IMG/VR virus record: IMGVR_UViG_3300005613_000384 | Coordinates: 1-25,228 of that record | Strand: one strand, 5' to 3' | DNA from: a virus | DNA: 25,228 bases | Shown here: positions 2,786-23,848 of the stretch, in pieces | Layout: every line of letters begins with the position of its first letter | Position numbering within the stretch: position 1 is the stretch's first letter | The notes under the pieces: generated by a model | Told to the model about the DNA's origin: nothing | Seen by the model: the letters and a program-made list of their open reading frames with translations, nothing else | Database searches by the model: none | Translations under genes and position numbers: made by a program

Positions 2786-4405
2786 TTATTCAAAGAATGT
2801 CCTTATTCTATGTACTTCTGGGCTACTATTACCGACTGGATTTAACACTACTTTAGGCTCGAATATATCTCCATCAACTCCAAGCAAAAAGACCGCTTTT
2901 TGAGTATCTGCTATGCTGTGGGTTGCTGTACCATCTGTAGTATAAGCTTGAACAAAATCTCCATCTTTATTTACCCTATACCAAAACTCTAAAGAAGCTC
3001 CATCTGGCAAAGGATCAAAGTATAACTCTGTCATTTTCCAGTTAGTTATCATTGTTGGTTTTTCTAGAGGTGATTTAAAATCTAAGCCTTCATAAGTTGC
3101 AGTAGCTTTAGTAGTTGAGCTAGTAGCTTTAACCCCAAAGTCTGTACCATCTTGATAAGAAGCTAGAACAGTTCCATTAATATTGATAACTGCACCAATT
3201 TCATCTACATCCATTTCATAATCAAGATTTAGAACGAATGGTTTGTTTTTAGCTTTTCTACCGTAAGAGTAAACTCCATTTTTACCAGAATCAGCTCCAT
3301 AAACTCCAAATAAAGCTAAGTTACCGACTGATTGTTTATCAATCCAGCTAGAAGCTCCTTCTTCCCAGAGGAAAAAGTCTACTGATTTAATAGTGTTTGT
3401 AACTCCTCCTGGGTTTACTTTACCGCCTCCAGGGAATTTAGTAACAGGCTGAGAATCTAGCATATCTGCAAAGAATATCTCTCCGTCACTTCCTACTTGA
3501 GCTAAAGGTACTTCTGTATCAATAGCACCATTTACGCCTCTAGTTGGTTGTGAAGCTTTGACAGTTCCAATAACTGCTCTACCATCTCTTTCAACAATAG
3601 TTTTAGAAATGTTTCCAGGAATAAGATCTGTAGCCTCTGGGGTAAATGACTGGTCATAACCTACATAAGCAATAAGTTCTTTATTACAAATAGTTAAAGC
3701 ACCGCCTGCTTGAGTCATTGTGTGCCAGTCTGATTGAGTTAAATTGCCGACTGTTTCAACATCATTCCAATCATCTAATCCTGGCAAAGGTTTTTTCTTT
3801 ATTAAAGTTCCTGTAGCAAAGAATAGATAAGTATCGGTTGAAGAGTACCACTCTGAAGCTCCGACAATTCCTCCATCTGGATCTTTATATACCCTCGCCC
3901 AGAATCCATCGGAATCTCTTCTATAAACAGATCCGGTGTTACCAAAGCCATATGTATAACCATCATTAGCTTCGACAAAGAACAGTATAAGGTCGTCAAA
4001 TACTGTACTTAAACCGGACGAGGGGCTAGGTGATGGACTAGTCGAACTTGAAGGACTAGTAGAGGCACTAGGGCTAGCTGAAGCACTTTCACTTGAGGAA
4101 GGGCTATCTGAAGTTCCTGTTGATGGACTTGGTGAAGATGATACTGAAGAGCTAGGACTAGCAGAAGAGCTAGGGCTAGCAGTAGCACTGGGGCTTGATG
4201 AAGGTGAAGTAGAAGAAGAAGGAGAAACTGAGGCTGATGGCGAAGAACTACTATTTAAACCCTCATCAACCATAGCTTGTAAAGAGCTTAAAGAATCTAC
4301 TCTTTTTCTTACATCTAAGTTAGTTCCAAATTTAAAAGATCCGGTTATACCTTTATCTTCATAATCGCTTAGACCTGTAAATGATTTAATTTCAAATGTG
4401 TTCAT
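2786..4405 (-). CDS. Probable beta-propeller-like tail protein with internal Ser/Pro segment
   Basis: The protein has 539 aa and an AAAGGC Shine-Dalgarno. Residues 1-50 form a conserved-looking opening (GLSDYEDKGITGSFKFGTNL, then DVRKRVDSL). Residues 52-132 are almost pure Ser/Pro/Ala/Thr. Residues 133-539 show repeated four-strand-like blades with aromatic GxxY/W motifs (YTYGFGNTGSVYRRD, WYSSTDTYLFFATG, NLALFGVYGAD), ending VHRIRTFFE. This architecture resembles propeller-type tail or stabiliser proteins of phages, but I cannot assign a named family. The Ser/Pro block sits inside the protein, between the N-terminal anchor and the propeller, unlike the C-terminal stalks of its neighbours. It may be an inserted flexible, possibly glycosylated, loop. 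Confidence 0.65.
   Translation of the reverse strand: MNTFEIKSFTGLSDYEDKGITGSFKFGTNLDVRKRVDSLSSLQAMVDEGLNSSSSPSASVSPSSSTSPSSSPSATASPSSSASPSSSVSSSPSPSTGTSDSPSSSESASASPSASTSPSSSTSPSPSPSSGLSTVFDDLILFFVEANDGYTYGFGNTGSVYRRDSDGFWARVYKDPDGGIVGASEWYSSTDTYLFFATGTLIKKKPLPGLDDWNDVETVGNLTQSDWHTMTQAGGALTICNKELIAYVGYDQSFTPEATDLIPGNISKTIVERDGRAVIGTVKASQPTRGVNGAIDTEVPLAQVGSDGEIFFADMLDSQPVTKFPGGGKVNPGGVTNTIKSVDFFLWEEGASSWIDKQSVGNLALFGVYGADSGKNGVYSYGRKAKNKPFVLNLDYEMDVDEIGAVININGTVLASYQDGTDFGVKATSSTTKATATYEGLDFKSPLEKPTMITNWKMTELYFDPLPDGASLEFWYRVNKDGDFVQAYTTDGTATHSIADTQKAVFLLGVDGDIFEPKVVLNPVGNSSPEVHRIRTFFE
4010..4252 (-). repeat. Ser/Pro low-complexity segment (internal)
   Basis: The segment encodes residues 52-132 of the 539-aa protein as irregular SPSxS units with Ala, Thr, Glu and Gly interspersed. 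Serine codons are mixed (AGT, AGC, TCT, TCA), so the DNA is not a perfect tandem repeat and the bias acts at protein level. It is the shortest of three such blocks in the window. Confidence 0.85.
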
Positions 4406-4412
4406 ATTGCCT

Positions 4413-7400
4413 TTATATATCCCAGTTCTTGTATTTGTCTATATAAGCACTGTTAGTAGTATCTTCGTATTTATCATTATAAGTGTTGCCAACATCTTCG
4501 TATTTATCAGCGTAAATAGCTGGTGATGGTGATGCTGAAGGACTAGAAGATTCACTAGCACTTTCACTAGAGGAAGGTGAGAGGGATTCACTTGCTGATG
4601 GAGAGCTAGAAGGTGACTGTGAAGCACTTTCTGAGCTTGATGGTGAGCTACTTGGTGATTGTGAAGCCGATGGTGAACTACTTGGAGTAGCTGAAGGACT
4701 AGCACTTTCTGATGCTGAAATAGATCTAGAAGGACTAGCACTTTCTGTAGCACTTGGAGAAGGACTTTCACTAGCAGATATTGAACTAGAAGGACTAGCA
4801 CTAATACTTGAACTAGGTGAAGGGCTTATAGAGCTACTAGGTGATTGTGAACTAGAAGGAGAAGCACTTGGAGTAGCACTTGGACTAGCAGAAGTAGAAG
4901 CTGATTCGCTTGAACTAGGACTAGCACTTGGTGATTGTGAAGCTGAAGGACTAGCTGAAATACTACTCGATGGAGAAATACTTGAGCTAGGACTTTGTGA
5001 GGCTGATTCACTAGACGATGGGCTAGGACTACCACTTAATGATGGAGAGTTACTAGGTGAAGAAGATATTGAACTACTTGGCGATTGTGAGCTACTTGGT
5101 GATAAAGAAGGTGACAAAGATATAGACAAACTCTCACTTGAAGATGGTGAAGGAGAGGCAGAAATAGAGCTTGAAGGCGATAAGGATATAGATCTACTCT
5201 CACTACTACTTGGCGAAGGTGATATAGAACTTGATTCACTAACTGATGGTGATCTACTCTCACTTGATGATGGCGATAAAGATATAGAGCTAGAAGGTGA
5301 AGGGCTAGCAGAAATAGAGCTAGATGGAGAAAGAGAAATAGAGCTAGATTCACTTGAGGAAGGGCTAGCAGAAATAGAACTACTAGGCGATTGGCTAGAA
5401 GAAGGACTAAGTGATTCACTAGCACTAGGGCTTAAAGAAGGGCTAGCGGAAGGAGAAAGAGAAGGGGATGGAGAACCCACCGTCCAAAACGTACTAGGGC
5501 TATCTTGGTTGTTGTATTCTGTGGATATCCAGTCTCCTGTTCTAACCACATTTAATACTCTAACTTCATCTAAAATACCATCAAAACCTTCTGCTGTATT
5601 ATTGCTATTTAACCCTATAAAAAAATCTTTATTACTATCCCCTATAGATCCACTAGCTGTAACTTCATCAACAGAGCCATCAATATAAATTCTTAGTTTA
5701 GTTGCAGTTACATCATAAACACCACAAAAATGATACCAATTATTATTTGATACTGTTGTGCTTGACTCAACTACATTGTTTGTAGTTAATCCTTCACAAT
5801 AAAATCTAGGAGTTGTCCCAGAATTATGAGCTAAATAATAACCGCCACCAGTACTTCTTTTACTTAAAGCATAACCAGAAGCCCAACTGCCAGCAGTATT
5901 TGTTGGTTTTTCCCAGGCTTGAATAGTTAAATTACTAGATATTTCTAAATTAGGGCAAGAAGCATCTGCAATAGAAGCATAAGAAGTTCCAGCAACAAAC
6001 GATTTTCCACCATCTATCTTTCCAGTAGCATCACCTGGAGTACCAGTAGCAGTAGTATCATATCCATTAGGACTAGAATCATTAAAATTACCACTTAAAT
6101 GATAAACACCCTCATAATCACTCCACACATTCTGACTTCCATAAGTATCACCTGCTTCATAAGGTAAAGCACTAGCATTTCCATACCAGATAAATAAACT
6201 TGTAGCACTGTTATAACTTAGAGTAGGTACTTTAGCCCAAATCTCACATTCTTCTGCACTAGTATCTAAGCTAACTATTTCAAAAGGTACTTCTGTTGTA
6301 CCTGCTGAGTCGGTGGTTATGCGAAGATCATGCCCACCCTGAGCAATAGCTCTAACTTCTTGACTTGTTAAAACACGATCAAAAACTGCAAAATCATCAA
6401 CTATAGCATCCATATAAGAAGCACTACCATTATAATTTCTTCCAATAGCAAAACCATTACCACTAACACTACTACCAGTTGCAGTAGTTAAAGTACCAGT
6501 ATAAACACTAGATCCATTAACAAAAATCTCAACACTATTACCATTAACTGTATAAGCAACATGAGTCCACGTTGACGTTGTAAAACTATAACTAGTTGTT
6601 TCTAATTCTGTATTAGAACCATCATAAACTTGTATCCTTAATGTCCCAGAATTATTCTGTAATTCAAATTCTCTTTCTGAATCATCTTTAAAATGAACAA
6701 TATTTTGTGTACTAGTATTATTATAAAAATTAACCCAACCTGAAAAACTATGGACACCAGATGTTGATGTATCAACTAAACCAGAGGTGCTAGAAAGATA
6801 TTTATTAGTATTAGAGCTTCCAAAATCTGCTCCATAATCAAACTTACCACTTGATGTATTAGATACTGAATTATTGTTTGTTAGTGTATAACTACCAGCA
6901 CTATCTGTGGTTAAAGAACCATTACTAAATCTATAATAAGAAACTAAATTAGGATCATCTATAAAATTATTATTTATCTCTATAGGTGCAACTCCACTAT
7001 AAACCGTACTACTCAAGTTATCATCTTTAATTAGAACAGGAAAATCAGTTAGGTTAGATGAGCCAGATACTTTGCTTGAGTCTGAGGCAATTTCTTGAGA
7101 GCCTGTCCAATCGGTAGAATTAGCACTTGTCCAGGGTACATCTGTACTAAAACTTGGAGATCCAGAAGCAGTTAAATCATTGTTACCAGATTCAGAAGTA
7201 TAATCATTATTAAATTTCCATTCATCAACTAAGTTATTAGAACCAACTGTTAAGTTAAACTTAGCCATATTATCTTCAATTTCAGATTGAGTTCTAATAT
7301 CTGACCAGATTCTAACGTGATTTAATTTACCATCAAAAAAGTTAGTTGGAGATCCAGAAACACTTCTTGAGCCAATATAAAAAGGAGCTGTACTATTATA

Positions 7401-7820
7401 AATAGATGTTACTCCAGATCCAACATCTGTCTGAGAGCTAGCAACGGAGCTTCCATTAATATAAAAAGTAGCAGAAGTAGCAGAAGCATCTAACGTAACA
7501 GCAACGTGAGTCCACACTCCAACATAAGAAGTTAAAGCATCATCTGTATAATGGTCAGTATAATTAGTTAAAGTTCCGTCTTTATATTGTATAAAACCAA
7601 GTGTACTATCTGATTTAATCCAAAAAACATAGCTTCTTTGATCTCCATTATTTTCAAACTTTGCAACAATAGTATTAATAGCCCCTATAGATTCAGGTTT
7701 TATCCATGCTTCAATAGTAATATCTCCTGTAATATCTAAACCAGTTTGAGAGGCATCAGTAATACCAGCATATTGAGAGCTAGAAGATTCTAAATCTAAT
7801 GAATATTGATTAAATGCCAT
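4413..7820 (-). CDS. Large LamG/DUF2341 virion adhesin with C-terminal Ser/Pro stalk
   Basis: The protein has 1135 aa and AAGGA before the ATG. Residues 3-215 are a first LamG/ConA-like lectin domain (ITIEAWIKPES, WTHVAVTLD, ATFYINGS, DGKLNHVRIW). Residues 245-278 look like the first part of a DUF2341 domain (VSGSSNLTDFPVLIKDDNLS). Residues 285-495 are a second LamG. Residues 496-565 resume DUF2341 (GHDLRITTDSAGTTEVPFEI, then LFIWYGNAS). Residues 568-760 are a third LamG. Residues 783-1100 are a Ser/Pro stalk, and residues 1101-1135 carry three YxDKY(E/K) units. There is no signal peptide. It is likely a virion surface protein binding glycans. It directly follows the fused glycosyltransferase gene and has its own candidate promoter. 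Assignment to tail or head fibre is open. Confidence 0.8.
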   Translation of the reverse strand: MAFNQYSLDLESSSSQYAGITDASQTGLDITGDITIEAWIKPESIGAINTIVAKFENNGDQRSYVFWIKSDSTLGFIQYKDGTLTNYTDHYTDDALTSYVGVWTHVAVTLDASATSATFYINGSSVASSQTDVGSGVTSIYNSTAPFYIGSRSVSGSPTNFFDGKLNHVRIWSDIRTQSEIEDNMAKFNLTVGSNNLVDEWKFNNDYTSESGNNDLTASGSPSFSTDVPWTSANSTDWTGSQEIASDSSKVSGSSNLTDFPVLIKDDNLSSTVYSGVAPIEINNNFIDDPNLVSYYRFSNGSLTTDSAGSYTLTNNNSVSNTSSGKFDYGADFGSSNTNKYLSSTSGLVDTSTSGVHSFSGWVNFYNNTSTQNIVHFKDDSEREFELQNNSGTLRIQVYDGSNTELETTSYSFTTSTWTHVAYTVNGNSVEIFVNGSSVYTGTLTTATGSSVSGNGFAIGRNYNGSASYMDAIVDDFAVFDRVLTSQEVRAIAQGGHDLRITTDSAGTTEVPFEIVSLDTSAEECEIWAKVPTLSYNSATSLFIWYGNASALPYEAGDTYGSQNVWSDYEGVYHLSGNFNDSSPNGYDTTATGTPGDATGKIDGGKSFVAGTSYASIADASCPNLEISSNLTIQAWEKPTNTAGSWASGYALSKRSTGGGYYLAHNSGTTPRFYCEGLTTNNVVESSTTVSNNNWYHFCGVYDVTATKLRIYIDGSVDEVTASGSIGDSNKDFFIGLNSNNTAEGFDGILDEVRVLNVVRTGDWISTEYNNQDSPSTFWTVGSPSPSLSPSASPSLSPSASESLSPSSSQSPSSSISASPSSSESSSISLSPSSSISASPSPSSSISLSPSSSESRSPSVSESSSISPSPSSSESRSISLSPSSSISASPSPSSSESLSISLSPSLSPSSSQSPSSSISSSPSNSPSLSGSPSPSSSESASQSPSSSISPSSSISASPSASQSPSASPSSSESASTSASPSATPSASPSSSQSPSSSISPSPSSSISASPSSSISASESPSPSATESASPSRSISASESASPSATPSSSPSASQSPSSSPSSSESASQSPSSSPSASESLSPSSSESASESSSPSASPSPAIYADKYEDVGNTYNDKYEDTTNSAYIDKYKNWDI
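4521..5474 (-). repeat. Ser/Pro low-complexity stalk, 318 residues
   Basis: The segment encodes residues 783-1100 of the LamG protein, dominated by SPSxS and SSSxSxSPS units with Ser the majority residue and Pro, Ala, Glu, Gln, Ile and Leu in between. At DNA level it is rich in CTAG and (A/G)CTAG(A/G) words, because Pro-Ser and Ala-Ser are often written CCT-AGT and GCT-AGT. Long open frames overlapping this block in other registers are by-products of the bias. Confidence 0.9.
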
Positions 7821-7867: not shown

Positions 7868-9520
7868 CTATTTCAAGTCAAAGTTAGATTCTCGCCAGCC
7901 TTTAGTATATTTCTTATTTCTAAATTGGTCTGGACTCCATCTAGTAGAAGTTAAATTTCCGTTATGCCTAATATCTAAATTAGGTTTAGCAGATTCCCAA
8001 GTATCGCAAGTAGAATTATCAACTCTTTCAGCTCTTCTATGTGTACCAGGCTCAAAACCCATTTTTCTAACATTAAGATTCGGGTTTTCTTCTAGTATTT
8101 TAATACGTTTCATATAATGTTTAATAGCAAACTCTCTATTGACGCAAATTCCACTAACTTGTTTACAGTCATCAACTCTATAAGCGTGACCATCTTCCCA
8201 TCTAACTTTCCAAATATTAGTGTTGTAATACCAAACATCGTCTTTAGGAGGGGTAAAATCAAAGTGAGAAGGATCATAGAGGACGTCATGTTCGCAGAAG
8301 AACACATACTTAGTTTTTGAGGCTTCTAAAGCACTAAGAATTTGTTTAAACATGGTTAAGTAGCCTCGTTTTTCTTTAATACGGATATTAAAACCCATAT
8401 TATTCATTTTCTTTAGTGAAGCGGAGACAATAGGCAAGCCAATTTCTCTAAGTCTTTGCTGGACTTTATGAGCGATAGCCAGTTTAAGTTTGTTATCAGT
8501 GTAATAAATAATGCCTTTATTAGATCCAAATTTCTTTCCTTGCTCCATAACAAGATTTAAAACCTTATCATTTTCGCCAGTATGCCAGCCTGGAATTGGT
8601 TTAAACTTCTCAAGTAACCAAGATAGAGGTCTTTTTTGACCTTTCCAACGGTTATATAAAAACAGATCCCTAGAGTATTTTCTAGCGTGGTTTACTTGAC
8701 CTTTTTCATGTTTATATGGAAAACCAAAGTCGCCACCCTGAGTTCTGAACATATGGGCGTACCATGTCTTGCGATTCGTGACCAGACGACCGCCAGAAAG
8801 CCAGGTTTTGCAGGCGACTTCAGTTCCCTGTTGACCCCAAGAGCCAAACTCTTCTTCAGAAATATCTAGATCCCAATACTTTTTTTTAGTGAGCATGAAA
8901 CAAGATCCTTGAGATGAAAACGTATTAATAATGTCTCCTTCTTGTTTCTTTTTTAATGCCCCCCAGTATTGAAAATGAAGAGTAGTATCGAATCTATAAC
9001 ACTCAGATCTTCTGGATTTACGCCTTTCCCAGTAGATCTTTCGTTCAAATTCTTTACTATCACACTTGGAGTTAATACCTTTATTTTCCCCTGGATTCAT
9101 ACAATGGGTAGGGGTTGGAGATTGATACCATTCATTCCCACACTTTTTACATCGCCAATTAAAAGCGTGCAAGTTATACATAGCCGGGAGCATAGTCCAG
9201 TCATCGTGACCTTCCATAGCTTCCATCATTTTAACGTCAAAACCTTCATCGACTGCACAATGGGCATCGATTTTCATAACCCATTTACCTCTAGCAAGTT
9301 TGCAAGCATCATTAGTAGCTTTTCTTTGGCCAACTGCTTTGTTATGCTCGATAATAGTTACTCTTTCGTCATCTTTAAGAGCTGGATCAATCCAGCCACC
9401 ATCCATAACAACAATAATTTCAGTATTACCTCTAATATTCTCTAGGATGTTTTCTACAGTATTTTTAAGAAACATTTCGTTTCTAGCTGGAATAAGGATT
9501 GATAGATCTATCTTTTCCAT
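7868..9520 (-). CDS. Two-domain glycosyltransferase fusion (GT2 + second GT-like domain)
   Basis: The protein has 550 aa. Residues 4-270 form a GT-A glycosyltransferase of GT2 type: LSILIPARNE near the start, VVMDGGW, GQRKATNDACKLARGKW, and a DxH metal/nucleotide motif DAH at 85-87. A probable zinc ribbon is inserted (C124, C127, C140, C153). Residues 335-550 form a second unit with KYVFFCEHDVLYDPSHF, whose EHD at 410-412 replaces a DxD-type motif. The first half is a paralogue of the 241-aa protein at 12152-12877 (shared DAHC, QGSC, KTWYAH). The second half is a paralogue of the 253-aa protein at 10865-11626 (KYV...E(D/H)D(I/V)LY..SHF). It overlaps the dehydrogenase gene by 13 nt and ends the enzyme operon. 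The role is presumably transfer of sugars to a phage structure; the acceptor is not shown. Confidence 0.8.
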   Translation of the reverse strand: MEKIDLSILIPARNEMFLKNTVENILENIRGNTEIIVVMDGGWIDPALKDDERVTIIEHNKAVGQRKATNDACKLARGKWVMKIDAHCAVDEGFDVKMMEAMEGHDDWTMLPAMYNLHAFNWRCKKCGNEWYQSPTPTHCMNPGENKGINSKCDSKEFERKIYWERRKSRRSECYRFDTTLHFQYWGALKKKQEGDIINTFSSQGSCFMLTKKKYWDLDISEEEFGSWGQQGTEVACKTWLSGGRLVTNRKTWYAHMFRTQGGDFGFPYKHEKGQVNHARKYSRDLFLYNRWKGQKRPLSWLLEKFKPIPGWHTGENDKVLNLVMEQGKKFGSNKGIIYYTDNKLKLAIAHKVQQRLREIGLPIVSASLKKMNNMGFNIRIKEKRGYLTMFKQILSALEASKTKYVFFCEHDVLYDPSHFDFTPPKDDVWYYNTNIWKVRWEDGHAYRVDDCKQVSGICVNREFAIKHYMKRIKILEENPNLNVRKMGFEPGTHRRAERVDNSTCDTWESAKPNLDIRHNGNLTSTRWSPDQFRNKKYTKGWRESNFDLK

Positions 9521-10395
9521 AATGGCTTCTTTGGGATAAGTTGTACAGTGCTTTCAACATCTTTTCTTCTGGCTACATTTTCTTCAATAGAGTTTTCTAA
9601 TCGATATAAAGGGCGTCCAATCTTACGCATAAAATATGCAAGAGCGTTCATATCTTTAGGCAGGCACTTTCCAGACCATCCGGGGTTATTTGGGTAAACA
9701 TTAGAATGAGTCCTATTAAGTCTAGGATCTAAGGTTAAACCCTCTCTAATATTAGAAAAGCTAGCGTGCATAGTTTGAGCTACTTCAAAGACATCATTCC
9801 AGAAATCTACTCTTCTACTTATCCACATATTCTCACAATACTTAATAATTTCAGCTTCTTTATGGCTAACTAAGTAAATAGGGGCATCAGCGTGTAAAAC
9901 TTTCATAAACATTCTAGCCACTGCTTCACGAGCTACTTTATTTCCACCTATAATCTGGAAGGCATCTCTTCTTGGCTCTAATAATGGATGACCTAGAGTT
10001 TCACCGATATATTCAGGACTCATACAGACTGGTATTCCATGTTCTTTTTCTAGTCTTTCACTTGTACCAATTTCTACAGTAGATTTAATTAAGAAGTTAT
10101 CCACCATATCTTTATGGTTTTCCACACACTTTTCCACAATAGAAACATCACATTGACCTGTTTTAGGGTTCATTGGAGTAGGAACGCTAATAATAGCTAG
10201 ATCATAATGTTGGTGTCTAGTTACTGGTTTATTATCTGATACTCTTCTAAAATTACCTGTGCTATCGGTATAATTAGCAGTTTTAAAGTATTTACCCATG
10301 TATTGACCAACCCAGCCATACCCAATAAGTAAGACTTTAGGTTCTTTATTAATTACATCTGAGCTAGATTCTGGTTTTCCAAGTGTTTTAGCCAT
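9508..10395 (-). CDS. UDP-glucose/GDP-mannose dehydrogenase family protein (UDP-sugar 6-dehydrogenase type)
   Basis: The protein has 295 aa. An N-terminal Rossmann fold has GYGWVG at 25-30 (GxGxxG). It then shows family landmarks: IISVPTPM near 69-75, KSTVEIGTSE at 104-113 (the STVxxGT motif), SPEYIGE at 126-132, K185 in EIIKYCENM, and the catalytic cysteine C244 in GWSGKCLPKDMNAL. Known members oxidise a nucleotide-sugar C6 alcohol to a uronic acid using NAD+. At 295 aa it lacks most of the C-terminal UDP-binding domain of full-length enzymes (over 400 aa), so substrate binding may be altered or supplied by a partner. It overlaps the upstream SAM-fold gene by 43 nt and the downstream GT by 13 nt. 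It may make the activated uronic acid used by the neighbouring transferases. Confidence 0.8.
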   Translation of the reverse strand: MAKTLGKPESSSDVINKEPKVLLIGYGWVGQYMGKYFKTANYTDSTGNFRRVSDNKPVTRHQHYDLAIISVPTPMNPKTGQCDVSIVEKCVENHKDMVDNFLIKSTVEIGTSERLEKEHGIPVCMSPEYIGETLGHPLLEPRRDAFQIIGGNKVAREAVARMFMKVLHADAPIYLVSHKEAEIIKYCENMWISRRVDFWNDVFEVAQTMHASFSNIREGLTLDPRLNRTHSNVYPNNPGWSGKCLPKDMNALAYFMRKIGRPLYRLENSIEENVARRKDVESTVQLIPKKPLWKR

Positions 10396-10868
10396 GACAG
10401 ATCTTTCCTATTACTTAATACTAACGTATAGGGTTTACCAACTTTAGTAAACTCATATTTATACTTAAATTGATCGTAAATTTTATGATAGCTGTATGGT
10501 TTACCTTGTTCGCTATCATGTAGAACAATGTAATCTGCACTATCTTTATACTTAACTGCACTATATTTTCTCTTGTAAGCCGGGCGATGATCTATAAAGA
10601 CAATGCTTAGATCAGCTTGAATATTAAAGTCGTAATTCTCTACCCATTCGATAATATGATTTTTACCTCTATATTCTTCAAAGTTTTTAAACCAGTTAGC
10701 ATCGGATTCATAGGAGAAAACAGGGATATTTCTCTCAAGAGCCATCCAGTGTAATAAAGGAGTAGAACTCCAACCAACGCCAAGTTCTAGGATAGGTTTA
10801 TCAGCTTGGCTTATAAGCTTAACTAATACTGGGATATGGCTACCACACCAGGCAGTTGTTTTTTTCAT
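10353..10868 (-). CDS. SAM-methyltransferase-fold protein, 171 aa
   Basis: A class I methyltransferase-like glycine-rich loop occurs early (ILELGVGWSSTPLL at 26-39), followed by an acidic residue after the next strand (FSYESD, E54), a LSIVFIDHRPAYKR strand near 77-91, and a C-terminal IVLHDSE strand. These match motifs I, II and IV of small SAM-dependent methyltransferases of sugar or peptide type. The start overlaps the upstream stop as ATGA, and the 3' end runs 43 nt into the dehydrogenase gene. The protein is short and lacks an obvious substrate-binding cap. Methylation of a sugar hydroxyl or another surface group is a plausible role; the fold call is firmer than the reaction. Confidence 0.65.
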   Translation of the reverse strand: MKKTTAWCGSHIPVLVKLISQADKPILELGVGWSSTPLLHWMALERNIPVFSYESDANWFKNFEEYRGKNHIIEWVENYDFNIQADLSIVFIDHRPAYKRKYSAVKYKDSADYIVLHDSEQGKPYSYHKIYDQFKYKYEFTKVGKPYTLVLSNRKDLSWLKHLENQNLAQM

Positions 10869-11626
10869 TTTATTGGTTTATCTCCCCATAATTTAATAAT
10901 ATCACTAGCTTTACCCCATTCAGCGAGTTCAACGATTTTAATATCGCCATGACGTTTTCTAGTTCCTTGAGAAAGGAAGCCATAAGCTTGAGGATGAGAA
11001 AAGACAATAGAGGGGCTTTGAGAGTAAGTTTCGTAAGTATTTCTAACAGTTACTCTTAATTGTTTTTCATAACGTCCAGGATCGCCAAAGAATTTTAATA
11101 GGTCTTCTTCTTTGCCACCGTTTTTGACGTGTTTAGCAACTCTTTCAAATCTTTCTTGCATAGCATCAACTAGATAATCTTTTTCACATAGAAGTTGATT
11201 AACTACTTTGCGTTTACTTCTAAAAGAGAAAATAGGAGGATTAGTCCATGTAAATAAACTAACTTTATTCATGTCATAAACAAAGGTATTAGGTTTGGTT
11301 AGAAGATCTTTTTCTATCTGCCTAGAGTTAAAATGAGATTCGCTATAAAGGATATCATCTTCAGCCATAGCAACATACTTAGTTTTAGCTTTTTTAGCTC
11401 CGATTGTCATCTGCCTGTAGATATTAAGATGTGATCTACCAATATCACCTAAAACTATGTTTTCATATTCACCGTTGTTAAATTTCTTTACAGGCTTATG
11501 ACTAACTACAACTAAAGGAATATCGCCAATAGCTTTTTTTAATTGTTTCTTAGTATTTTTCAAGAAAAAAGGATTAGTTTCCTCAAGATGATTGCTAGTA
11601 TAGTAGACAACTGTTAAATCTTTCAT
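10865..11626 (-). CDS. Glycosyltransferase-like protein, 253 aa
   Basis: I choose the ATG at 11626, which overlaps the upstream TGA as ATGA, over an in-frame TTG at 11647. The protein starts MKDLTVVYYTSN, a beta-strand opening typical of GT-A folds. It continues PLVVVSHKP and GRSHLNIYRQMTIGAKKAKT, then KYVAMAEDDILYSESHF with an EDD/DxD-like centre at 89-91. The region around this motif is paralogous to the C-terminal half of the 550-aa fusion. The remaining 150 residues are basic and helical and carry no second motif I know. It probably uses a nucleotide sugar with a metal ion. It lies within the six-gene overlapping enzyme chain. Confidence 0.65.
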   Translation of the reverse strand: MKDLTVVYYTSNHLEETNPFFLKNTKKQLKKAIGDIPLVVVSHKPVKKFNNGEYENIVLGDIGRSHLNIYRQMTIGAKKAKTKYVAMAEDDILYSESHFNSRQIEKDLLTKPNTFVYDMNKVSLFTWTNPPIFSFRSKRKVVNQLLCEKDYLVDAMQERFERVAKHVKNGGKEEDLLKFFGDPGRYEKQLRVTVRNTYETYSQSPSIVFSHPQAYGFLSQGTRKRHGDIKIVELAEWGKASDIIKLWGDKPIK

Positions 11627-12162
11627 TTCTTTATAAACCACCAGCAAGGAGCTTGGTCATCTTTATGAACGCCAGTTGCTCTTGGAATAATATTTAACTC
11701 TATTTGGTGTGCTAGTGTATACGTTGTAATCGCCTTAAATACTCCACCGGTCTTGAAGTGATACATATCATGGCCGGAAACAATTCCTCCAGGTCTAACT
11801 TTCTTTGACCAGAGAATAATATCTGTCATTACGCTGTCAAAATGATGATCCCCGTCAATAAATACAAAATCTAAAGCTTCATCCATGATTTTTAGTGAAG
11901 CTTCTACTCCGGTAGTTCTTAAAATCTTAGCATTATGGGTACTTAATCTTTCCATAGCTTTTTCATAAGCTTTTTGTTGGTAGTCGTTACTTCGCCAGTT
12001 ACCCTCATATTTCATATATGGATCTACACAATAAAGCTGTAGTCCTGGGATTTCTTTGCATAATATTTCGGCATAGCGTCCGTCTGCTGTACCGATTTCT
12101 GCTCCATACTTAAAACCCTGTTTATTAAAGTGTTTAGCTAGTTCTATACGATCAGTTATCAT
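11623..12162 (-). CDS. Class I SAM-dependent methyltransferase, 179 aa
   Basis: Motif I is AEIGTADGRYAEIL at 21-34. It is followed by LYCVDPY (acidic residue binding the SAM ribose), KILRTTGVEASLKIMDEALD, then DFVFIDGDHHFDSVMTDI and VRPGGIVSGHDMYHF. The FIDGDH and GGxxxxHD pair is characteristic of the Methyltransf_24 group, which acts on sugars and other small or polymer-linked substrates. Length fits a complete domain. The start overlaps the upstream glycosyltransferase by 11 nt, and the stop forms ATGA with the next gene. By context it probably methylates a sugar made or transferred by the operon. Confidence 0.8.
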   Translation of the reverse strand: MITDRIELAKHFNKQGFKYGAEIGTADGRYAEILCKEIPGLQLYCVDPYMKYEGNWRSNDYQQKAYEKAMERLSTHNAKILRTTGVEASLKIMDEALDFVFIDGDHHFDSVMTDIILWSKKVRPGGIVSGHDMYHFKTGGVFKAITTYTLAHQIELNIIPRATGVHKDDQAPCWWFIKK

Positions 12163-12877
12163 AGAGTTTCCTTATTTCTTTTCTAACTTTTAATTGATCT
12201 TCGTTAAGTGAATAGCCTCTACCTTTAGTTTTATGGAAGTGTGCATACCATGTTTTAGTGTTACGCATGACTTTTCCACCTAGTTTTCCACATTTAATAG
12301 CTATTTCTTGAGCTTCTTGCCAAAAACCGCCGAATCTCTCTTCATCCATTAGATCTAATTTATTAAACCAGTCTTTAGTCATAAACCAGCAACTACCTTG
12401 AAATGATTCAGTTGGGATAATAGCGTTATCTTTACGCTCCAGAGTTGGTCTACCTTGTAGGTTTTCATCTAATTTCATCACATCAATAGGGTATTTAGCG
12501 TCTTTTCTTTCTTCAATCGCCCATTTCTTAGGGTTTAGGGGGTATCTTCTTGGGATTGTTACCCAATTATCTTTATGGTCTTTAATGAGTTTTTCATCAA
12601 AGCCTTTATCAAACATACAGTGAGCATCAGTTTTAAGGATATATTTACCTCTAGATAAAGCAACTCCAGAGTTTATTGCGTTCCTCATTCCTCTAGCTTT
12701 GGAATAATGAATGTAATTTACTCTGGAATCTTTACTATATTGACCAGGATTAAGCCACCAGCCATCTAAGATGATATAAATCTCGATTTGACCAGTGGCT
12801 TTATCTAATAAGTCTTCAACTGTTTGCCTTGTATATTCTTCATTCCTTGAAGGAATAATGATGGTTACTTTATCCAT
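12152..12877 (-). CDS. GT2-family glycosyltransferase, 241 aa
   Basis: The opening MDKVTIIIPSRNEEYTRQTV is a classic GT2 nucleotide-binding strand and loop. It is followed by IYIILDGWW, ARGMRNAINSGVALSRGKYI (the GxxxARNxG-like segment) and a DxH metal motif (TDAHC, D84-H86). FQGSCWFMTKDWF and TKTWYAHFHKTKG complete the catalytic half. The same landmarks occur in the first half of the 550-aa fusion, so the two are paralogues; this one lacks the zinc-ribbon insert. There is no membrane segment, so it acts in the cytoplasm. It is the first gene of the enzyme operon; a candidate promoter would place the transcript start at its ATG, although AAGG precedes it. Confidence 0.85.
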   Translation of the reverse strand: MDKVTIIIPSRNEEYTRQTVEDLLDKATGQIEIYIILDGWWLNPGQYSKDSRVNYIHYSKARGMRNAINSGVALSRGKYILKTDAHCMFDKGFDEKLIKDHKDNWVTIPRRYPLNPKKWAIEERKDAKYPIDVMKLDENLQGRPTLERKDNAIIPTESFQGSCWFMTKDWFNKLDLMDEERFGGFWQEAQEIAIKCGKLGGKVMRNTKTWYAHFHKTKGRGYSLNEDQLKVRKEIRKLYDN

Positions 12878-12883
12878 AACCTT

Positions 12884-12913
12884 AGTTTATTCCATTCAAC
12901 CGCTTCTAGTCAA
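12884..12913 (-). promoter_or_regulatory. Candidate sigma-70-like promoter for the glycosylation operon
   Basis: The minus strand has TTGACT (12908-12913), an 18-nt spacer and TAAACT (12884-12889). Six nucleotides then separate the -10 from the ATG at 12877, so initiation would fall at or next to the start codon (leaderless). The same geometry is seen at 16107-16136. Confidence 0.45.
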
Positions 12914-12918
12914 TAGGA

Positions 12919-13776
12919 CTATGCAGGAGGGAATGAAGGACTTGCACTAGGACTTAAGCTAGGGCTTGCACTTGGGCTAGAGCTTGCACTAGGACTTAAG
13001 CTTACACTTGTACTAGGACTCAAGCTAACACTTGCACTTGCACTTGCACTAGGGCTAGTACTTGCACTAGGACTTGCACTCACACTCACACTTGGGCTTA
13101 AACTCGCACTGGAGCTAGGGCTTGCACTTGGTGATTCAGAGGCACTAGGACTCTGACTTACCGAGGCTGATGGTGAAGCACTAGAACTTGGGCTAGCACT
13201 AACACTGACACTAGGACTTAAACTTACACTTAAACTTGGGCTAGCTGATTCGCTAACACTTCGGCTTAAACTTGGGCTATTACTAGGACTTGCACTTACA
13301 CTAACACTTGGGCTTGCACTTGGGCTAGCACTTGGGCTGGCACTAGAGCTAGGACTCAAGCTGACACTAACACTTGGACTTAAACTGACACTAGCACTAG
13401 GACTTGGGCTAACTGAAGCTGATCCAGCCTCACTTACCTTACTCCATGTGGAAGAGGTAGTCGATCCAGTATTGATATAAACGACAGTACCAGTACCATT
13501 TATTTTGTAAAAGGTTGCCCCTTTAGCAAAACCAGTATATCCGTTAGGAACTGTATTGCCTTCTGCTTCAAGGATAGTATCAGAGCTAGAAGCTTTGACG
13601 CTATTTCCTGAAGTTCTATATCTAAGTATTCTATTAGTTCTATAAGGTGCAAGAGCAGTTAAAAGATCGGCTTCTGTAGTAGTACGAATACCACTATCGA
13701 TAGCCTCAACACGAGCTAACTCTTTTTGAGTTAAAGCTGGCAAGTCTGATTTGACTTCAAATGTTGTAGATGCCAT
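12919..13776 (-). CDS. Virion surface protein with C-terminal Ser/Pro stalk, 285 aa
   Basis: Residues 1-118 form a compact domain (MASTTFEVKSDLPALTQKEL, then ILRYRTSGNSVKASSSD, ending VVYINTGSTTSSTWSKVSEA) whose last part is beta-rich and resembles phage head-fibre or decoration N-domains. Residues 121-281 are Ser/Pro/Ala/Val units of the SVSxSPS type, ending SFPPA. No enzyme motif or signal peptide is visible. It lies immediately downstream of the major capsid gene, separated by an inverted repeat, and immediately upstream of the glycosylation operon. I infer a capsid- or neck-attached fibre whose stalk is a candidate glycosylation substrate. The exact attachment site is unknown. Confidence 0.7.
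   Translation of the reverse strand: MASTTFEVKSDLPALTQKELARVEAIDSGIRTTTEADLLTALAPYRTNRILRYRTSGNSVKASSSDTILEAEGNTVPNGYTGFAKGATFYKINGTGTVVYINTGSTTSSTWSKVSEAGSASVSPSPSASVSLSPSVSVSLSPSSSASPSASPSASPSVSVSASPSNSPSLSRSVSESASPSLSVSLSPSVSVSASPSSSASPSASVSQSPSASESPSASPSSSASLSPSVSVSASPSASTSPSASASASVSLSPSTSVSLSPSASSSPSASPSLSPSASPSFPPA
12934..13416 (-). repeat. Ser/Pro low-complexity stalk, about 161 residues
   Basis: The segment encodes residues 121-281 of the 285-aa protein: SxSxSPS units with Val, Ala and Leu as the variable residue, more regular than the other two blocks. The DNA shows frequent (A/G)CTTGCACT and ACTAGG words but no exact long tandem unit. Confidence 0.88.
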
Positions 13777-13860: not shown

Positions 13861-14976
13861 TTATGCAAAGGTTGCGAATAACTCGACAGCCATGTGTCTG
13901 CGAGAATCTGCAACTTTAGCACCGTATACAAAGAGATCTTTGTATGCTGAACCGAAGTTACCAATTAAATCTTCTTCAATAGTAGCTTCTAACATTTTTT
14001 CAGCGAAAGTCATCCAGTTAGAATGACCAGCTAAAATTCTATAACCGTCACTGTTGTTTCCGGTTAATCTGTTAGATCTGAAGATCTTCATTCCTAATAA
14101 TTCGGTGATTAAACCTTTTTTAACGAGTTCTGAATAAACTTCAGGAACGTGTAAAGCGACACCGCTTGCACGAACTAAAGTATTTTCAAATTCTGGAGGA
14201 ACGACCATCCATCTACCTTGATCTGGTACTGCGTTATTACTATATTTTTCAGCTTCATCTAATTTTTGTTTAACATTTGCAACGTATTGCAATAAATTAG
14301 TTGTAGTGATTTCCACTGCACTTGTAGCTTCAATAGTATATTCTGCACCTGCTCCAATAGCACCGCCAGTATATTGTGAATCGACATCATCGAGGTCGTC
14401 TTCAATTACAATGGAAGTAGCACTGGCAAAAGATTTAACTCTATACCATGCGGAATGACCAGTAGCTTTAAAGCCTCTGCCCACCATAGAAGAAGTAAAA
14501 GTAGTACCAGAACCGGTTACTGCACCAGTAGTTACATCAACTGTAACAGTACCGGTAGTGTAATCAGTACCTACACGATTACCAGCCCCAACATCAGCGT
14601 AAAGACCAAAAACAAACTCATCCATGTTTTTGTTTCTTTCGTCTGCTTTTTGAGCAACGACTGTAGAATGGGGATCTTTAATATAAGATTTCCAATTATC
14701 AATAGTCAATTCTTTCCAGTAGAAAGATTTCAATTGATCGATAGTTAATACTGCATTGTTTTCTAACAAGCTATCTGCTGTTAGATTAGCTCCGGTATAG
14801 TCCTTCTCGGAAATACGATCAAGATTCAAGATGTTGAGTTTAGAACCAACTTGGTTGATTTCACCTTGATAATCTCTATTGACGATAACGTCAGTTAGAG
14901 ATCGATCATACATTTCCTTGAGAAGTCTAGTGGAGAACCCTTGTGCTAGGGTTGTAGCTCTTGCTGAACCTGCCAT
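13861..14976 (-). CDS. Major capsid protein (HK97-fold candidate)
   Basis: I take the ATG at 14976 (MAGSARATTLAQGF), which has AAAGGA just upstream; the in-frame TTG at 14988 would fall inside a hairpin. The protein has 371 aa. Residues 10-135 resemble the coat N-arm, E-loop and spine helix (FSTRLLKEMYDRSLTDVIVN to KNMDEFVFGLY). Residues about 138-216 are a beta-rich insert (TGTVTVDVTTGAVTGSGTTF, then YRVKSFASATSIVIEDD) of a kind common in phage virion proteins. Residues 225-371 resume with RWMVVPPEFENTLV, GMKIFRSNRLTG and the C-terminal RRHMAVELFATFA. The order portal, scaffold candidate, then this gene supports the assignment. Its own promoter, 5' hairpin and 3' hairpin suggest separate high expression. 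Confidence 0.85.
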   Translation of the reverse strand: MAGSARATTLAQGFSTRLLKEMYDRSLTDVIVNRDYQGEINQVGSKLNILNLDRISEKDYTGANLTADSLLENNAVLTIDQLKSFYWKELTIDNWKSYIKDPHSTVVAQKADERNKNMDEFVFGLYADVGAGNRVGTDYTTGTVTVDVTTGAVTGSGTTFTSSMVGRGFKATGHSAWYRVKSFASATSIVIEDDLDDVDSQYTGGAIGAGAEYTIEATSAVEITTTNLLQYVANVKQKLDEAEKYSNNAVPDQGRWMVVPPEFENTLVRASGVALHVPEVYSELVKKGLITELLGMKIFRSNRLTGNNSDGYRILAGHSNWMTFAEKMLEATIEEDLIGNFGSAYKDLFVYGAKVADSRRHMAVELFATFA

Positions 14977-14986
14977 AGATCCTTTC

Positions 14987-15007
14987 AAGTTAATTAATAA
15001 TTAACTT
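14987..15007 (-). other. AT-rich hairpin in the major capsid 5' leader
   Basis: A perfect palindrome has 9-bp arms (AAGTTAATT and AATTAACTT) around a 3-nt loop. Its base lies directly before GAAAGGA and ten nt before the ATG. A 5'-terminal or leader hairpin next to the Shine-Dalgarno can stabilise mRNA or tune initiation. Confidence 0.5.
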
Positions 15008-16472: not shown

Positions 16473-18476
16473 TTATTCGTAAACTACCGTGATTTTAGCT
16501 CCAAGAGCTGTAACTACTGTTAGACCATCACTGAATGGGGCATCAAATTGAATATCTCCTAAAACTTTAGTAGTGTCTAAATCTGCCATCTGGATTCCAC
16601 CAGTTGTAATACCATCATAAATCTGGACATTACCAGAATTATCATTATTTACTACCATGTGAAGTATCCCAGCCCCATATTTCAAAACTGTTGTAGCATT
16701 TGCCCCAATATATTTAACTGCTGGGTTAGTTATTAACTCTCCAAGTCTTAAGATAGTTGCAAATCTTAATTGGAATGAATTATCAGTTGTATTTCCATTC
16801 TCGTTGTAGTTTTCCATTCTAATAGGAAAATCTACTGTATTAGTTCCTGCACTAGTTGGAAAAGTCATTGTGTGTAAAAGTATGCCATTTATAAAGAATC
16901 TAGCTGATATAGCAGTGTAATCAATCACAAACCTATAAAGATCTGTGCCTGTAATATCTACTGTGTCACCATAATTACCATTAAAACTGCCATTTTGGAC
17001 TACTGTATCAACTGTGTTTTTTCTACTTCCAACTCCAAAAGTAACACCGTCATATTCAAAGAAGTAACCATTGTCATCATCATAAGCACCAGCTCTTCTA
17101 ACATTATCTGCTTGTGGATCTGTAGTTAGCCTACCAACCATTCTAAATTCATTGACAGTTCCAGGTACTTTGCGAGCTTTTCTAACACTATCGTATTGAG
17201 CTGATGAATCGGCTGTAGTACCAGTTGATAGTGTAATCTGTCCTGCTTGAGTAACCGTTCCACTACCAGTAACAGTTTCAGTCCAGAAGTTAGTATCCTT
17301 AGTTCCATTATTAAAAGCTGTGCCAACCAATCTAACAGGTGTAATAGATTTCATAGAACCTAGTGGATCAATGTCTAACCTAATTCCTGTTTGTTCATCT
17401 TCTTGGGACACCTTTAGAGAACCTCCAAAAGAAGAACCAATGTTTAAAAAATCTCCGTCTGAGGTTTTACCAGTTAAGATTGATTTAACCAATCTAGCAT
17501 CATCATCATCGCTAATAGTGTCTTGTATTCTGTGGCTAGATGGTAGTGAGTTTCCTTTTAATATAGTTTGTAACCTAAACTCTGTTTGAGCATCAGCTCC
17601 GTTTGTATAAACAACCCTTATGTATTTTGAGTGAGGATTGATAGCATAATTCTTTTCTGTATCTGCTGGAACAGTATAAAAATCTCCATCATCATCCCAA
17701 TTAGTACTATCCTGCGATTGTTGAATACAAAGTCCATCAGTAGCACTAGCGACATCACTATAAACAGTAACAAAGCCAATACCATAATCTAAAATCTCTG
17801 TGCCAACACCAGTAAAAATATGATCTGATCCTCCAGTATCTGCTGGCAATAATGAAGTAGATGAATTATTTTCATCAACTTTACCAGGCATAGATAATAC
17901 ATCAACTTGGACGTGACCATCATCATCTACTAAAGCTGGATGTTTAGCGTTATCCGATGTAGCAAAGGTATGTATATTAGCTACTCCACCAGTAGAACCG
18001 CCACCGCCACGATAGAATTTACCTTCGTGAACCAGTCTAACAGGAATAGCATCTTTAGCTCTTTTAGGAAGTTTAACTGTTTCTTTTTTAACAGTAACTT
18101 TAGGGGCAGGAACTACAACTGGATCAGCTTTAGGCACGTTAATAGTAGGAAGTTTAATCTCTGGTACTTTGATATCAGGTACAGTCACTTTGATATCAGG
18201 TACTTTAATCTCTGGGATAGTTACCTCTGGGGGTTTAATCTCTGGTACTTCTACCTTTATTTCAGGTAGTTTAACCTCTGGTACAACTACATCAGGAACG
18301 ACAATATCAGGTATCTTAACTTCTGGTACTTCGATTTTAATAGCTTTGATAGCTTCTAAAAGTTCTTCTTTGTCTTTTCTTTTCTCTAGCTTTTCAATAT
18401 GCCTCATTAAACGAGCATCAGCTTTAATTTCACCAGATTTAACTTTTTTAACTAATTCATTTAGTTTAATAGGCAT
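16473..18476 (-). CDS. Fibrous virion protein with VPEIK repeats and beta-sandwich C-half, 667 aa
   Basis: Residues 1-47 form a basic charged helix. Residues 50-117 are a run of (V/L/I)P(E/D)(I/V)K-type pentapeptide units (IPDIVVPDVVVPEVKLPEIK style), a probable extended rod. After a Lys-rich linker, a GGGGSTGG spacer (157-164) opens a beta-rich region (170-667). This includes a stretch near 380-570 with lectin-like phrases (GYFFEYDGVTFGVGSRK, ARFFINGILLHTM) resembling ConA/LamG sandwiches. The ATG follows the portal stop with no gap (TAAATG). It lies between portal and scaffold, so it is probably head-associated. I infer a head fibre or portal-linked spike; a tail role cannot be excluded. 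Confidence 0.65.
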   Translation of the reverse strand: MPIKLNELVKKVKSGEIKADARLMRHIEKLEKRKDKEELLEAIKAIKIEVPEVKIPDIVVPDVVVPEVKLPEIKVEVPEIKPPEVTIPEIKVPDIKVTVPDIKVPEIKLPTINVPKADPVVVPAPKVTVKKETVKLPKRAKDAIPVRLVHEGKFYRGGGGSTGGVANIHTFATSDNAKHPALVDDDGHVQVDVLSMPGKVDENNSSTSLLPADTGGSDHIFTGVGTEILDYGIGFVTVYSDVASATDGLCIQQSQDSTNWDDDGDFYTVPADTEKNYAINPHSKYIRVVYTNGADAQTEFRLQTILKGNSLPSSHRIQDTISDDDDARLVKSILTGKTSDGDFLNIGSSFGGSLKVSQEDEQTGIRLDIDPLGSMKSITPVRLVGTAFNNGTKDTNFWTETVTGSGTVTQAGQITLSTGTTADSSAQYDSVRKARKVPGTVNEFRMVGRLTTDPQADNVRRAGAYDDDNGYFFEYDGVTFGVGSRKNTVDTVVQNGSFNGNYGDTVDITGTDLYRFVIDYTAISARFFINGILLHTMTFPTSAGTNTVDFPIRMENYNENGNTTDNSFQLRFATILRLGELITNPAVKYIGANATTVLKYGAGILHMVVNNDNSGNVQIYDGITTGGIQMADLDTTKVLGDIQFDAPFSDGLTVVTALGAKITVVYE
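18126..18329 (-). repeat. Pentapeptide-like VP(E/D)(I/V)K repeat region
   Basis: The segment encodes residues 50-117 of the 667-aa protein. Units vary (VPEVK, IPDIV, LPEIK, VPDIK, TVPDIK), with Pro roughly every five residues and alternating hydrophobic and charged positions. The matching DNA has imperfect direct repeats with (C/T)TCTGGTAC and TATCAGGTA words on the plus strand. Confidence 0.85.
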
Positions 18477-23104: not shown

Positions 23105-23128
23105 TCATACTTCCTTTAGATTTTTAAT
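23104..23128 (-). repeat. 25-bp direct repeat, copy 2
   Basis: This is the second copy of the repeat at 22863-22887, spanning the 3' end of the 247-aa gene (residues NLKEV) and the first base of the next gene. The flanking bases differ from copy 1, so the duplicated unit is exactly 25 bp. Confidence 0.9.
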
Positions 23129-23848
23129 AGCTTCCTCAAACTCTGATTTAATAAATGTTTTACCTGCTATTTCTACAGTTTCTTTTGGTTTTGGTAGACC
23201 TAATTCTTTGACAATGCCATATTCGACAGTTCCACCTTCTAACTTGCCACAAGTGATAGTTTTTTCTTCGTCATTGATTTCTCTCCAAGTGCAAATTCCT
23301 GCAAAGATTTTTAATCCAAAAGATAATCTCTCTTTACAAGTAATTGATAGACCTGCCTGTATGCCATAATTTTCACCAGCTTCAATCGAGCTACCAGCTT
23401 CAATCGAGCTAACAGCTTTAATCGAGCCACCAGCTTCAATCGAGCTAACAGCTTTAATCCAGTAACCAGCTTCAATCCAGTAACCAGCTTTAATCGAGCT
23501 ACCAGCTTCAATCCAGTAACCAGCTTCAATCGAGTCACCAGCTTTAATCGAGTCACCAGCTTTAATCGAGTCACCAGCTTTAATCGAGTCACCAGCTTTA
23601 ATCGAGCCACCAGCTTTAATCGAGCTACCAGCTTCAATCGAGTCACCAGCTTTAATCGAGCTACCAGCTTCAATCGAGTCACCAGCTTCAATCGAGCTAC
23701 CAGCTTCAATCTCTATATAACCAGCCACATAAAGTCTACCAGTAAAATCTAAAGAGCATTTAAACTCTAGGTTTCCTTCTACTGAATAGCCATAGTCATC
23801 TTTGTGTTTTTCTAAATCATTTAAAGATTTAATAATATATGTTTTCAT
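23105..23848 (-). CDS. Hexapeptide-repeat (left-handed beta-helix-like) protein, 247 aa
   Basis: Residues 1-45 form a folded cap (YIIKSLNDLEKHKDDYGYSV...). Residues 51-158 are 18 uninterrupted hexads of the form (S/D/G/Y)(S/W)I(E/K)A(G/V). Read as I-(E/K)-A-G-(S/D)-x, they fit the left-handed beta-helix hexapeptide rule and would make about six 18-residue coils. Residues 160-247 form a C-terminal domain with Cys171, Cys186 and Cys200. AAAGGAAA precedes the ATG. There is no acyltransferase catalytic His motif, so an enzyme role is not supported. Its charged ladder faces could bind ligand, DNA or another copy. Similar repeat proteins occur in uncultured bacteria and phages, but I know no function. 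Confidence 0.7.
   Translation of the reverse strand: MKTYIIKSLNDLEKHKDDYGYSVEGNLEFKCSLDFTGRLYVAGYIEIEAGSSIEAGDSIEAGSSIKAGDSIEAGSSIKAGGSIKAGDSIKAGDSIKAGDSIKAGDSIEAGYWIEAGSSIKAGYWIEAGYWIKAVSSIEAGGSIKAVSSIEAGSSIEAGENYGIQAGLSITCKERLSFGLKIFAGICTWREINDEEKTITCGKLEGGTVEYGIVKELGLPKPKETVEIAGKTFIKSEFEEAIKNLKEV
23375..23698 (-). repeat. Tandem repeat, 18 units of 18 bp
   Basis: 324 bp of near-identical 18-bp units read on the plus strand as CACCAGCTTTAATCGAGT, with variation mainly at the CTTTAAT/CTTCAAT site (Lys/Glu) and at the GAGCTA/GAGTCA/CAGTAA triplets (Ser, Asp or Tyr). The high identity indicates recent expansion or gene conversion by slippage. There are no spacers, so it is not a CRISPR array. 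Confidence 0.95.

Follow-up and report, generated by a model that had tools for sequence, protein, structure and literature searches.

The window analysed here is the entire IMG/VR record IMGVR_UViG_3300005613_000384, a linear fragment of 25,228 bases whose phage nature is indicated by the presence of capsid and terminase genes. All likely genes are encoded by the minus strand: the small and the large terminase gene come first and are followed by the capsid region, SP1, six enzymes, LamG-stalk, SP2, and more structural genes. SP1, the LamG-stalk protein, and SP2 each carry a stretch rich in serine and proline (Ser/Pro). The six enzyme open reading frames (ORFs; 7868-12877) overlap their neighbours by 4-43 bases and are predicted to encode a glycosyltransferase (GT-1), a methyltransferase, a second glycosyltransferase (GTb), a small conserved protein, a short dehydrogenase, and a two-domain glycosyltransferase (double GT). 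A preliminary description of the window had placed six overlapping enzyme genes between two Ser/Pro-stalk genes, with a third stalk gene following, and the ORFs, coordinates, and flanks were all found as described (table 1). The evidence presented below suggests that the six genes probably form a virion O-glycosylation cassette among the late structural genes of a tailed phage, with the Ser-rich stalks of SP1, the LamG-stalk protein, and SP2 as the acceptors.

Serine makes up about half of the stalk residues and proline 13-15%, and lysine and arginine are nearly absent. The stalks of 161 and 318 residues in the preliminary description are the same stretches as those of about 182 and 342 residues in table 1, drawn with tighter limits. 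All six serine codons from both codon families are intermixed, which a slipping DNA repeat would not yield, and the stalks are therefore protein-level features and not DNA microsatellites. The window has two occurrences of an SPSx-type codon pattern, and 100 shuffles have none. The arrangement around the stalk is compact in related phages: the stalk gene starts within 150 bases of the capsid stop codon in 36 out of 38 relatives that carry both stalk and glycosyltransferase (GT), and in 25 out of 38 no more than 100 bases lie between the stalk gene and the start of the GT-1 gene.

In eukaryotes, polypeptide GalNAc-transferases (ppGalNAc-Ts; CAZy family GT27) start mucin O-glycosylation. A GT-1 profile based on an alignment of 35 homologues identified ppGalNAc-Ts as the best whole-enzyme matches in the PDB (best E 1e-10), with a match that covers their D-A-H-C motif, Gly-Gly region, and third histidine; the E. 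coli chondroitin polymerase reached an equally high score, but in two partial pieces. The double-GT profile matched ppGalNAc-Ts (up to E 4.7e-12 for ppGalNAc-T1) and little else. Structure prediction of the GTs, which had been proposed as a check, supported the resemblance for GT-1: its AlphaFold model (pLDDT 92) retrieved ppGalNAc-Ts as all 50 of the 50 best Foldseek matches (E 2e-15, TMq 0.73-0.84). In contrast, the model of GTb (pLDDT 94) displays a GT-A fold and retrieved assorted GT-A enzymes with a TMq of about 0.46. Residues D85, H87, W228, E234, and H256 of the double GT are invariant or nearly so among its homologues. Compared with the W-G-G-E-type catalytic loop of ppGalNAc-Ts, the double GT has an S-W-G that does not vary and a Glu that hardly varies; GT-1 retains the Glu (E191) but not the Trp.

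The two enzymes share with family GT27 the best profile and fold match, the D-x-H motif and third histidine, and a Ser/Thr/Pro-rich, mucin-like acceptor (predicted here). They differ from it in that no Pfam domain for a ricin-type lectin or a type II membrane anchor was found in GT-1 (241 aa) or the double GT, in that the double GT carries a second GT-A domain at the place of the GT27 lectin domain, and in that the structural alignments show 14-20% identity. Because lectin domain and membrane anchor are missing, GT-1 and the double GT are not classed as members of GT27 but are read, based on sequence and models, as peptide-acting GTs that are distant relatives of this family.

Table 1. Features of the cassette and its surroundings, in window positions
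Feature	Position	Strand	Evidence
Major capsid protein gene (anchor of the comparative test)	13861..14988	-	PHROG match (major head protein, E 7.6e-24); also matches proteins annotated as capsid/major head in isolated phages
SP1, capsid-adjacent protein: conserved N-terminal domain of ~103 aa and Ser/Pro tail	12919..13776	-	
SP1 Ser/Pro stalk, probable acceptor	12919..13467	-	91 Ser and 27 Pro in 182 aa; 25 SPS motifs
GT-1, ppGalNAc-T-like GT, probable initiating enzyme	12152..12877	-	PF00535; PDB profile; AlphaFold model and Foldseek
GT-1 D84-A-H86 motif (metal/UDP site)	12620..12628	-	D and H invariant in 35 homologues; aligns with ppGalNAc-T DAHC
GT-1 H213, counterpart of the third metal-binding His in ppGalNAc-Ts	12239..12241	-	Invariant; aligns with His of GHVFRS in 6s22
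Methyltransf_24-type S-adenosylmethionine (SAM) methyltransferase, probable glycan decorator	11623..12162	-	PF13578, E 1.2e-14
GTb, GT-A fold, probable extending GT; homologous to the double-GT C-terminal domain	10865..11647	-	Model and Foldseek; no Pfam family
Small conserved cassette protein, probably SAM-dependent methyltransferase-like (weak)	10353..10868	-	Homologues in 14 related loci
Short homologue of UDP-sugar 6-dehydrogenase, lacking the C-terminal domain	9508..10395	-	PF03721 and PF00984; Klebsiella UDP-glucose dehydrogenase 3phl
Double GT: N-terminal ppGalNAc-T-like and C-terminal GTb-like domain	7868..9520	-	PF00535 at N-terminus; PDB profile
LamG-stalk protein, probable virion protein	4413..7820	-	Three Laminin_G_3 domains, then stalk; PF13385, E 7e-72; PHROG virion structural protein 8510
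Ser/Pro stalk of the LamG-stalk protein	4488..5513	-	186 Ser and 52 Pro in 342 aa
SP2, protein of the structural module that carries a Ser/Pro insertion	2786..4405	-	Homologue comparison
SP2 Ser/Pro insertion, about 109 aa, near N-terminus	3974..4300	-	

Related loci were collected by the capsid protein alone, so that the sampling was uninfluenced by stalks or GTs, and were counted if at least 3 kb of downstream sequence was available. Stalk and GT were both present in 24 of these loci and both absent in 34, a single locus contained a GT only, and no locus contained a stalk only (Fisher p 1e-15, which is not a true probability because the loci are related by kinship). The stalk state changes three times on well-supported branches of the capsid tree, and the GT changes alongside in all three cases. 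Both the co-occurrence and the co-loss that the preliminary description had suggested looking for are thus seen in these loci. The sole GT without a stalk (locus L333) belongs to a 568-aa protein with merely a 52-bit match to the GT-1 profile and was set aside as a probable GT of a different kind.

The proteins that carry the stalks were also followed individually. The N-terminal domain of SP1 adjoins the capsid gene in 35 out of 36 stalk loci, and it is present in about 20 out of 48 stalkless loci, where a different C-terminus takes the place of the stalk and no cassette is found. Homologues of SP2 contain a Ser/Pro insertion of 65-97 residues in close cassette-bearing relatives and none in cassette-free relatives; in some cassette phages the SP2 homologue lacks the insertion and the stalks are found in other proteins. 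It is this persistence of the carrier proteins in a stalkless form where the cassette is absent that makes the comparative test convincing.

The same neighbourhood recurs in other contigs. Among the fragments sampled by GT-1, 100 out of 105 contain a Ser/Pro stalk ORF, usually at most 50 bases away, and the five others are mostly contig ends or, in one case, carry a Thr-rich stalk (L098). Among the fragments sampled by the double GT, 69 out of 80 contain a stalk and several of the remainder are cut off. A sampling from the stalk side, based on a TCN/CCN codon pattern in viral contigs, was too loose: only 20 out of 120 fragments contained a real SPS stretch, few of which were phage stalks, and none of the 100 scan fragments without a true stalk carries these GTs. 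In the resulting small sample, five out of nine records checked have GT-1 relatives. The Thr-rich stalk of L098 (8376-8744, TKTSTATRTKTSTSTRTKTPTT...) follows the same type of cassette and replaces the Ser/Pro stalk. Judged from this stalk, the cassette enzymes may accept threonine as well.

The association of stalk and cassette is strong but not absolute, as stalkless cassettes and GT-less stalk records both exist, and several observations weigh against the proposed O-glycosylation of the stalks. About five of the 80 double-GT fragments (L103, L387, L393, L425, and L440) contain the cassette on a fragment of reasonable length without a visible stalk and look like real exceptions, although cassettes without a Ser-rich structural protein are not a regular occurrence. 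Conversely, L264 (an 84-kb record) and L271 contain a clear phage-type Ser/Pro stalk and no GT-1 relative in the record; these stalks may be served by other GTs or be unmodified. Three independent changes on the capsid tree are too few for significance in a sign test, the lectin domain and membrane anchor of GT27 are missing from both GTs, and a surface module transferred as one linked unit could produce the same statistics even if the stalk were not an acceptor. The last point corresponds to an explanation in which stalk and cassette hitch-hike together without an enzyme-substrate relation; both lie in a variable region of the genome, there has evidently been exchange between phages and hosts, and the number of independent changes is small. 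However, three separate proteins carry stalks and two of them also occur in stalkless form when the cassette is absent, and the chromosomal stalk proteins described below look unrelated outside their Ser/Pro part. A single linked insertion is insufficient to produce this distribution, and we give hitch-hiking hardly any credence.

A genome scan with one genome for each species identified 33 loci, most of them in metagenome-assembled genomes (MAGs) named Patescibacteria (Woese-, Zambryski-, Collier-, and Saccharibacteria, WWE3, Parcubacteria, and others). One of the loci, L149 in a Woesebacteria MAG, contains this phage group's portal, capsid, SP1, and cassette, suggesting that the phage host probably belongs to the Patescibacteria (candidate phyla radiation, CPR), an assignment that is indirect because MAG binning can be wrong. 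Several other loci are plainly chromosomal, located on contigs of 95-456 kb with the cassette amid housekeeping and other genes such as those for BipA, TsaD, dihydroorotate dehydrogenase, ribonucleotide reductase, CorA, and TatC. In these loci, the double GT is followed, directly or one gene later, by Ser/Pro proteins of 907-2660 aa that show no domain in common with the phage stalk proteins outside the Ser/Pro part. The pairing looks, from gene content, like a cellular mucin-like coat system. Whole-genome pattern counts in the Patescibacteria MAGs mix SP and TP repeats and miss stalks that are off the four-residue phase, and a gene-level reading was therefore used. The giant Ser/Pro proteins after the double GT in L365, L366, L369, L370, and L371 have as many as 2,377 of 2,615 aa in Ser/Pro stretches, and TatC is found beside several of these cassettes.

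Phage and chromosomal copies are interleaved on the double-GT tree, indicating that exchange between phage and host took place more than once. The interleaving, together with the homologous host cassettes beside their own Ser/Pro proteins, agrees with a role of the cassette in the modification of host surface glycans or glycoproteins (for superinfection exclusion or adhesion), the phage stalks being merely linked; as hosts pair homologous cassettes with Ser/Pro proteins, proteins of the host could be substrates of the phage enzymes. The sugar and lectin "auxiliary metabolic genes" of Patescibacteriota phages, including nucleotide-sugar genes, have likewise been assigned to host surface modification (PMC12911398). 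Such a role is nevertheless judged unlikely: the cassette lies next to the capsid gene, among the late structural genes, and tracks stalks on the phage's own proteins, and its constant partner in phage and chromosome alike is the adjoining gene for a Ser/Pro protein.

The proximity to the capsid gene also raises the question of whether the capsid or tail-tube protein is the acceptor and the stalks are passive. There is a precedent in mycobacteriophages, whose GTs attach O-glycans to their own virion proteins, namely to capsid and tail-tube subunits at their C-termini (Freeman et al. 2023, Cell Host Microbe, as cited in PMC12619734). However, one capsid family occurs both with and without the cassette, which tracks the stalk and not the capsid, and the chromosomal cassettes pair with Ser/Pro proteins in the absence of any capsid, making a capsid or tail-tube acceptor very unlikely.

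The pairing of cassette and stalk in two settings, on carriers without a common domain outside the stalk, leaves an enzyme-substrate relation as the simplest reading, and glycosylation of the stalks by the cassette, as proposed in the preliminary description, is a prediction that the sequence evidence supports well. From the observed gene order, family and fold resemblance, metal-site residues, and co-occurrence and co-change with the stalks, we infer a pathway in which the first sugar would be transferred from a UDP-sugar to the stalk serines by GT-1, by the N-terminal domain of the double GT, or by both, in the way that ppGalNAc-Ts act on mucins. Extension of the sugar would then fall to GTb and to the C-terminal domain of the double GT, and the methyltransferase(s) and the short dehydrogenase would cap or oxidise the sugars. 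The product would be rigid, hydrophilic, bottlebrush-like fibres on the head and tail, assuming that the stalk proteins are part of the virion, with stiffness of the fibres, protection, and resemblance to the host coat as possible benefits.

The remaining cassette enzymes agree for the most part with their earlier labels. The designations as GT2, methyltransferase, second GT-like protein, and two-domain GT are backed by Pfam (Glycos_transf_2 and Methyltransf_24) and by the GT-A fold model of GTb, whose homology to the C-terminal domain of the double GT is indicated by profiles that match the same proteins. The "SAM-fold" proposed for the product of 10353-10868 could not be confirmed, as this protein has neither a Pfam family nor a sequence match in the PDB. 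The 90 proteins encoded by other cassette genes in 28 related phage loci are mostly SAM methyltransferases, with Methyltransf_24 as the commonest family (26 out of 90), and short UDP-sugar dehydrogenases, next to single cases of an aminotransferase, RmlD, an epimerase, a GFO/IDH/MocA oxidoreductase, and a formyltransferase. Such variable content is what one expects, judging by these families, of a fast-changing glycan-decorating set.

The methyltransferase at 11623-12162 matches a PHROG named DNA methyltransferase (phrog_2675, E 2e-16) and phage GTs often modify DNA, which would agree with the phage DNA as the acceptor (base hypermodification). Pfam, however, places the enzyme in Methyltransf_24, and the PHROG label was therefore dropped. 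Furthermore, the GT folds match peptide-acting enzymes, the genes sit among late structural genes, and the stalkless capsid relatives also lack the GTs, which is unexpected under DNA modification. No base-modification enzymes were recognised in the 25-kb fragment, the early genes lying outside the window. Overall, DNA is a highly improbable acceptor.

The earlier identification of a UDP-sugar 6-dehydrogenase homologue holds for the N-terminal and central domains (Pfam) but not for the C-terminal domain, which is absent. The alignment with the Klebsiella UDP-glucose dehydrogenase (UGDH, 3phl; E 2e-20) stops before this domain, and neither Pfam nor the PDB alignment gave a match to the C-terminal UDP-binding domain of UGDH in the 295-aa window protein; we take the absent part to be the nucleotide-binding domain of known UGDHs. 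In view of this absence, the uronic acids tentatively suggested in the preliminary description may or may not be among the sugars made. The active-site regions align with the Klebsiella enzyme (EAEIIKY...N with the Lys and Asn, GKCLPKD with the Cys), the catalytic Lys, Asn, and Cys having been checked in the window copy. Relatives in L004, L005, L026, and L031 are also short (295-323 aa including the window copy) and lack the C-terminal nucleotide-binding domain. The conservation of the shortening across relatives suggests an unusual substrate, and the missing domain leads to the guess that the enzyme may oxidise protein-attached sugars instead of free UDP-sugars.

To our knowledge, phage virion glycosylation has been demonstrated only in a few mycobacteriophages. 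The system proposed here resembles theirs in that phage-encoded GTs have the phage's own virion proteins as (predicted) acceptors, and differs in that the acceptors are long Ser/Pro stalks (predicted) and not the C-termini of capsid and tail-tube subunits. No full-length relative of GT-1 or the double GT was found in 50,697 records of isolated phages, mycobacteriophages included. A GT gene cluster that serves a Ser- or Thr-rich surface protein is also described for the serine-rich repeat (SRR) glycoproteins of Gram-positive bacteria and the Pgf system of S. mutans (PMC7948813 and PMC5856776, in the parts considered here). These systems have other acceptor repeats, and the SRR glycoproteins are exported by the accessory Sec pathway and act as adhesins, whereas the proteins here would belong to the phage virion and, in Patescibacteria, are large and encoded near TatC. 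The Patescibacteriota phages of PMC12911398 share the probable hosts, the ConA-like lectin domains, and the nucleotide-sugar genes; the section of that study considered here contains no GalNAc-transferase-like enzymes, Ser/Pro stalks, or linkage between them. The combination of enzymes and stalks was not found in the open-access literature searched, which is no proof of novelty.

If the reading of the stalks as O-glycosylation acceptors is right, virion glycosylation becomes predictable across a whole uncultured phage lineage, with the acceptor stretches named and with a probable initiating enzyme related to those that build animal mucins. From the chromosomal counterpart, mucin-like coats also seem likely in the Patescibacteria, a very large group that has hardly been cultured and whose cell-surface biochemistry is little known, and such coats would bear on the attachment to host cells and on phage recognition and mimicry. 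A broader scenario, which we put forward tentatively and regard as somewhat doubtful, is that Patescibacteria build giant Ser/Pro glycoprotein coats with ppGalNAc-T-like enzymes and that phages have repeatedly exchanged these enzymes and display stalks of the same kind on their heads and tails, giving the virion a host-like coat. A prokaryotic mucin-type system of this kind would, if true, represent a distinct branch of protein O-glycosylation that is absent from all isolated phages.

Three further regions of the window encode repeat proteins. A structural-module protein at 16473-18476 with a PHROG virion structural protein match contains a long repeat of the PEVKVPEIKVP type near its N-terminus. 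The 247-aa protein at 23105-23848 consists mostly of SIEAGDSIKAG-like repeats that probably form a beta-helix, and its PHROG matches are weak and without an assigned function. Two neighbouring proteins at 424-2293 have common repeated modules (YGIKVSKTGKNVLTA...YSSKY), and related modules are found in L282.

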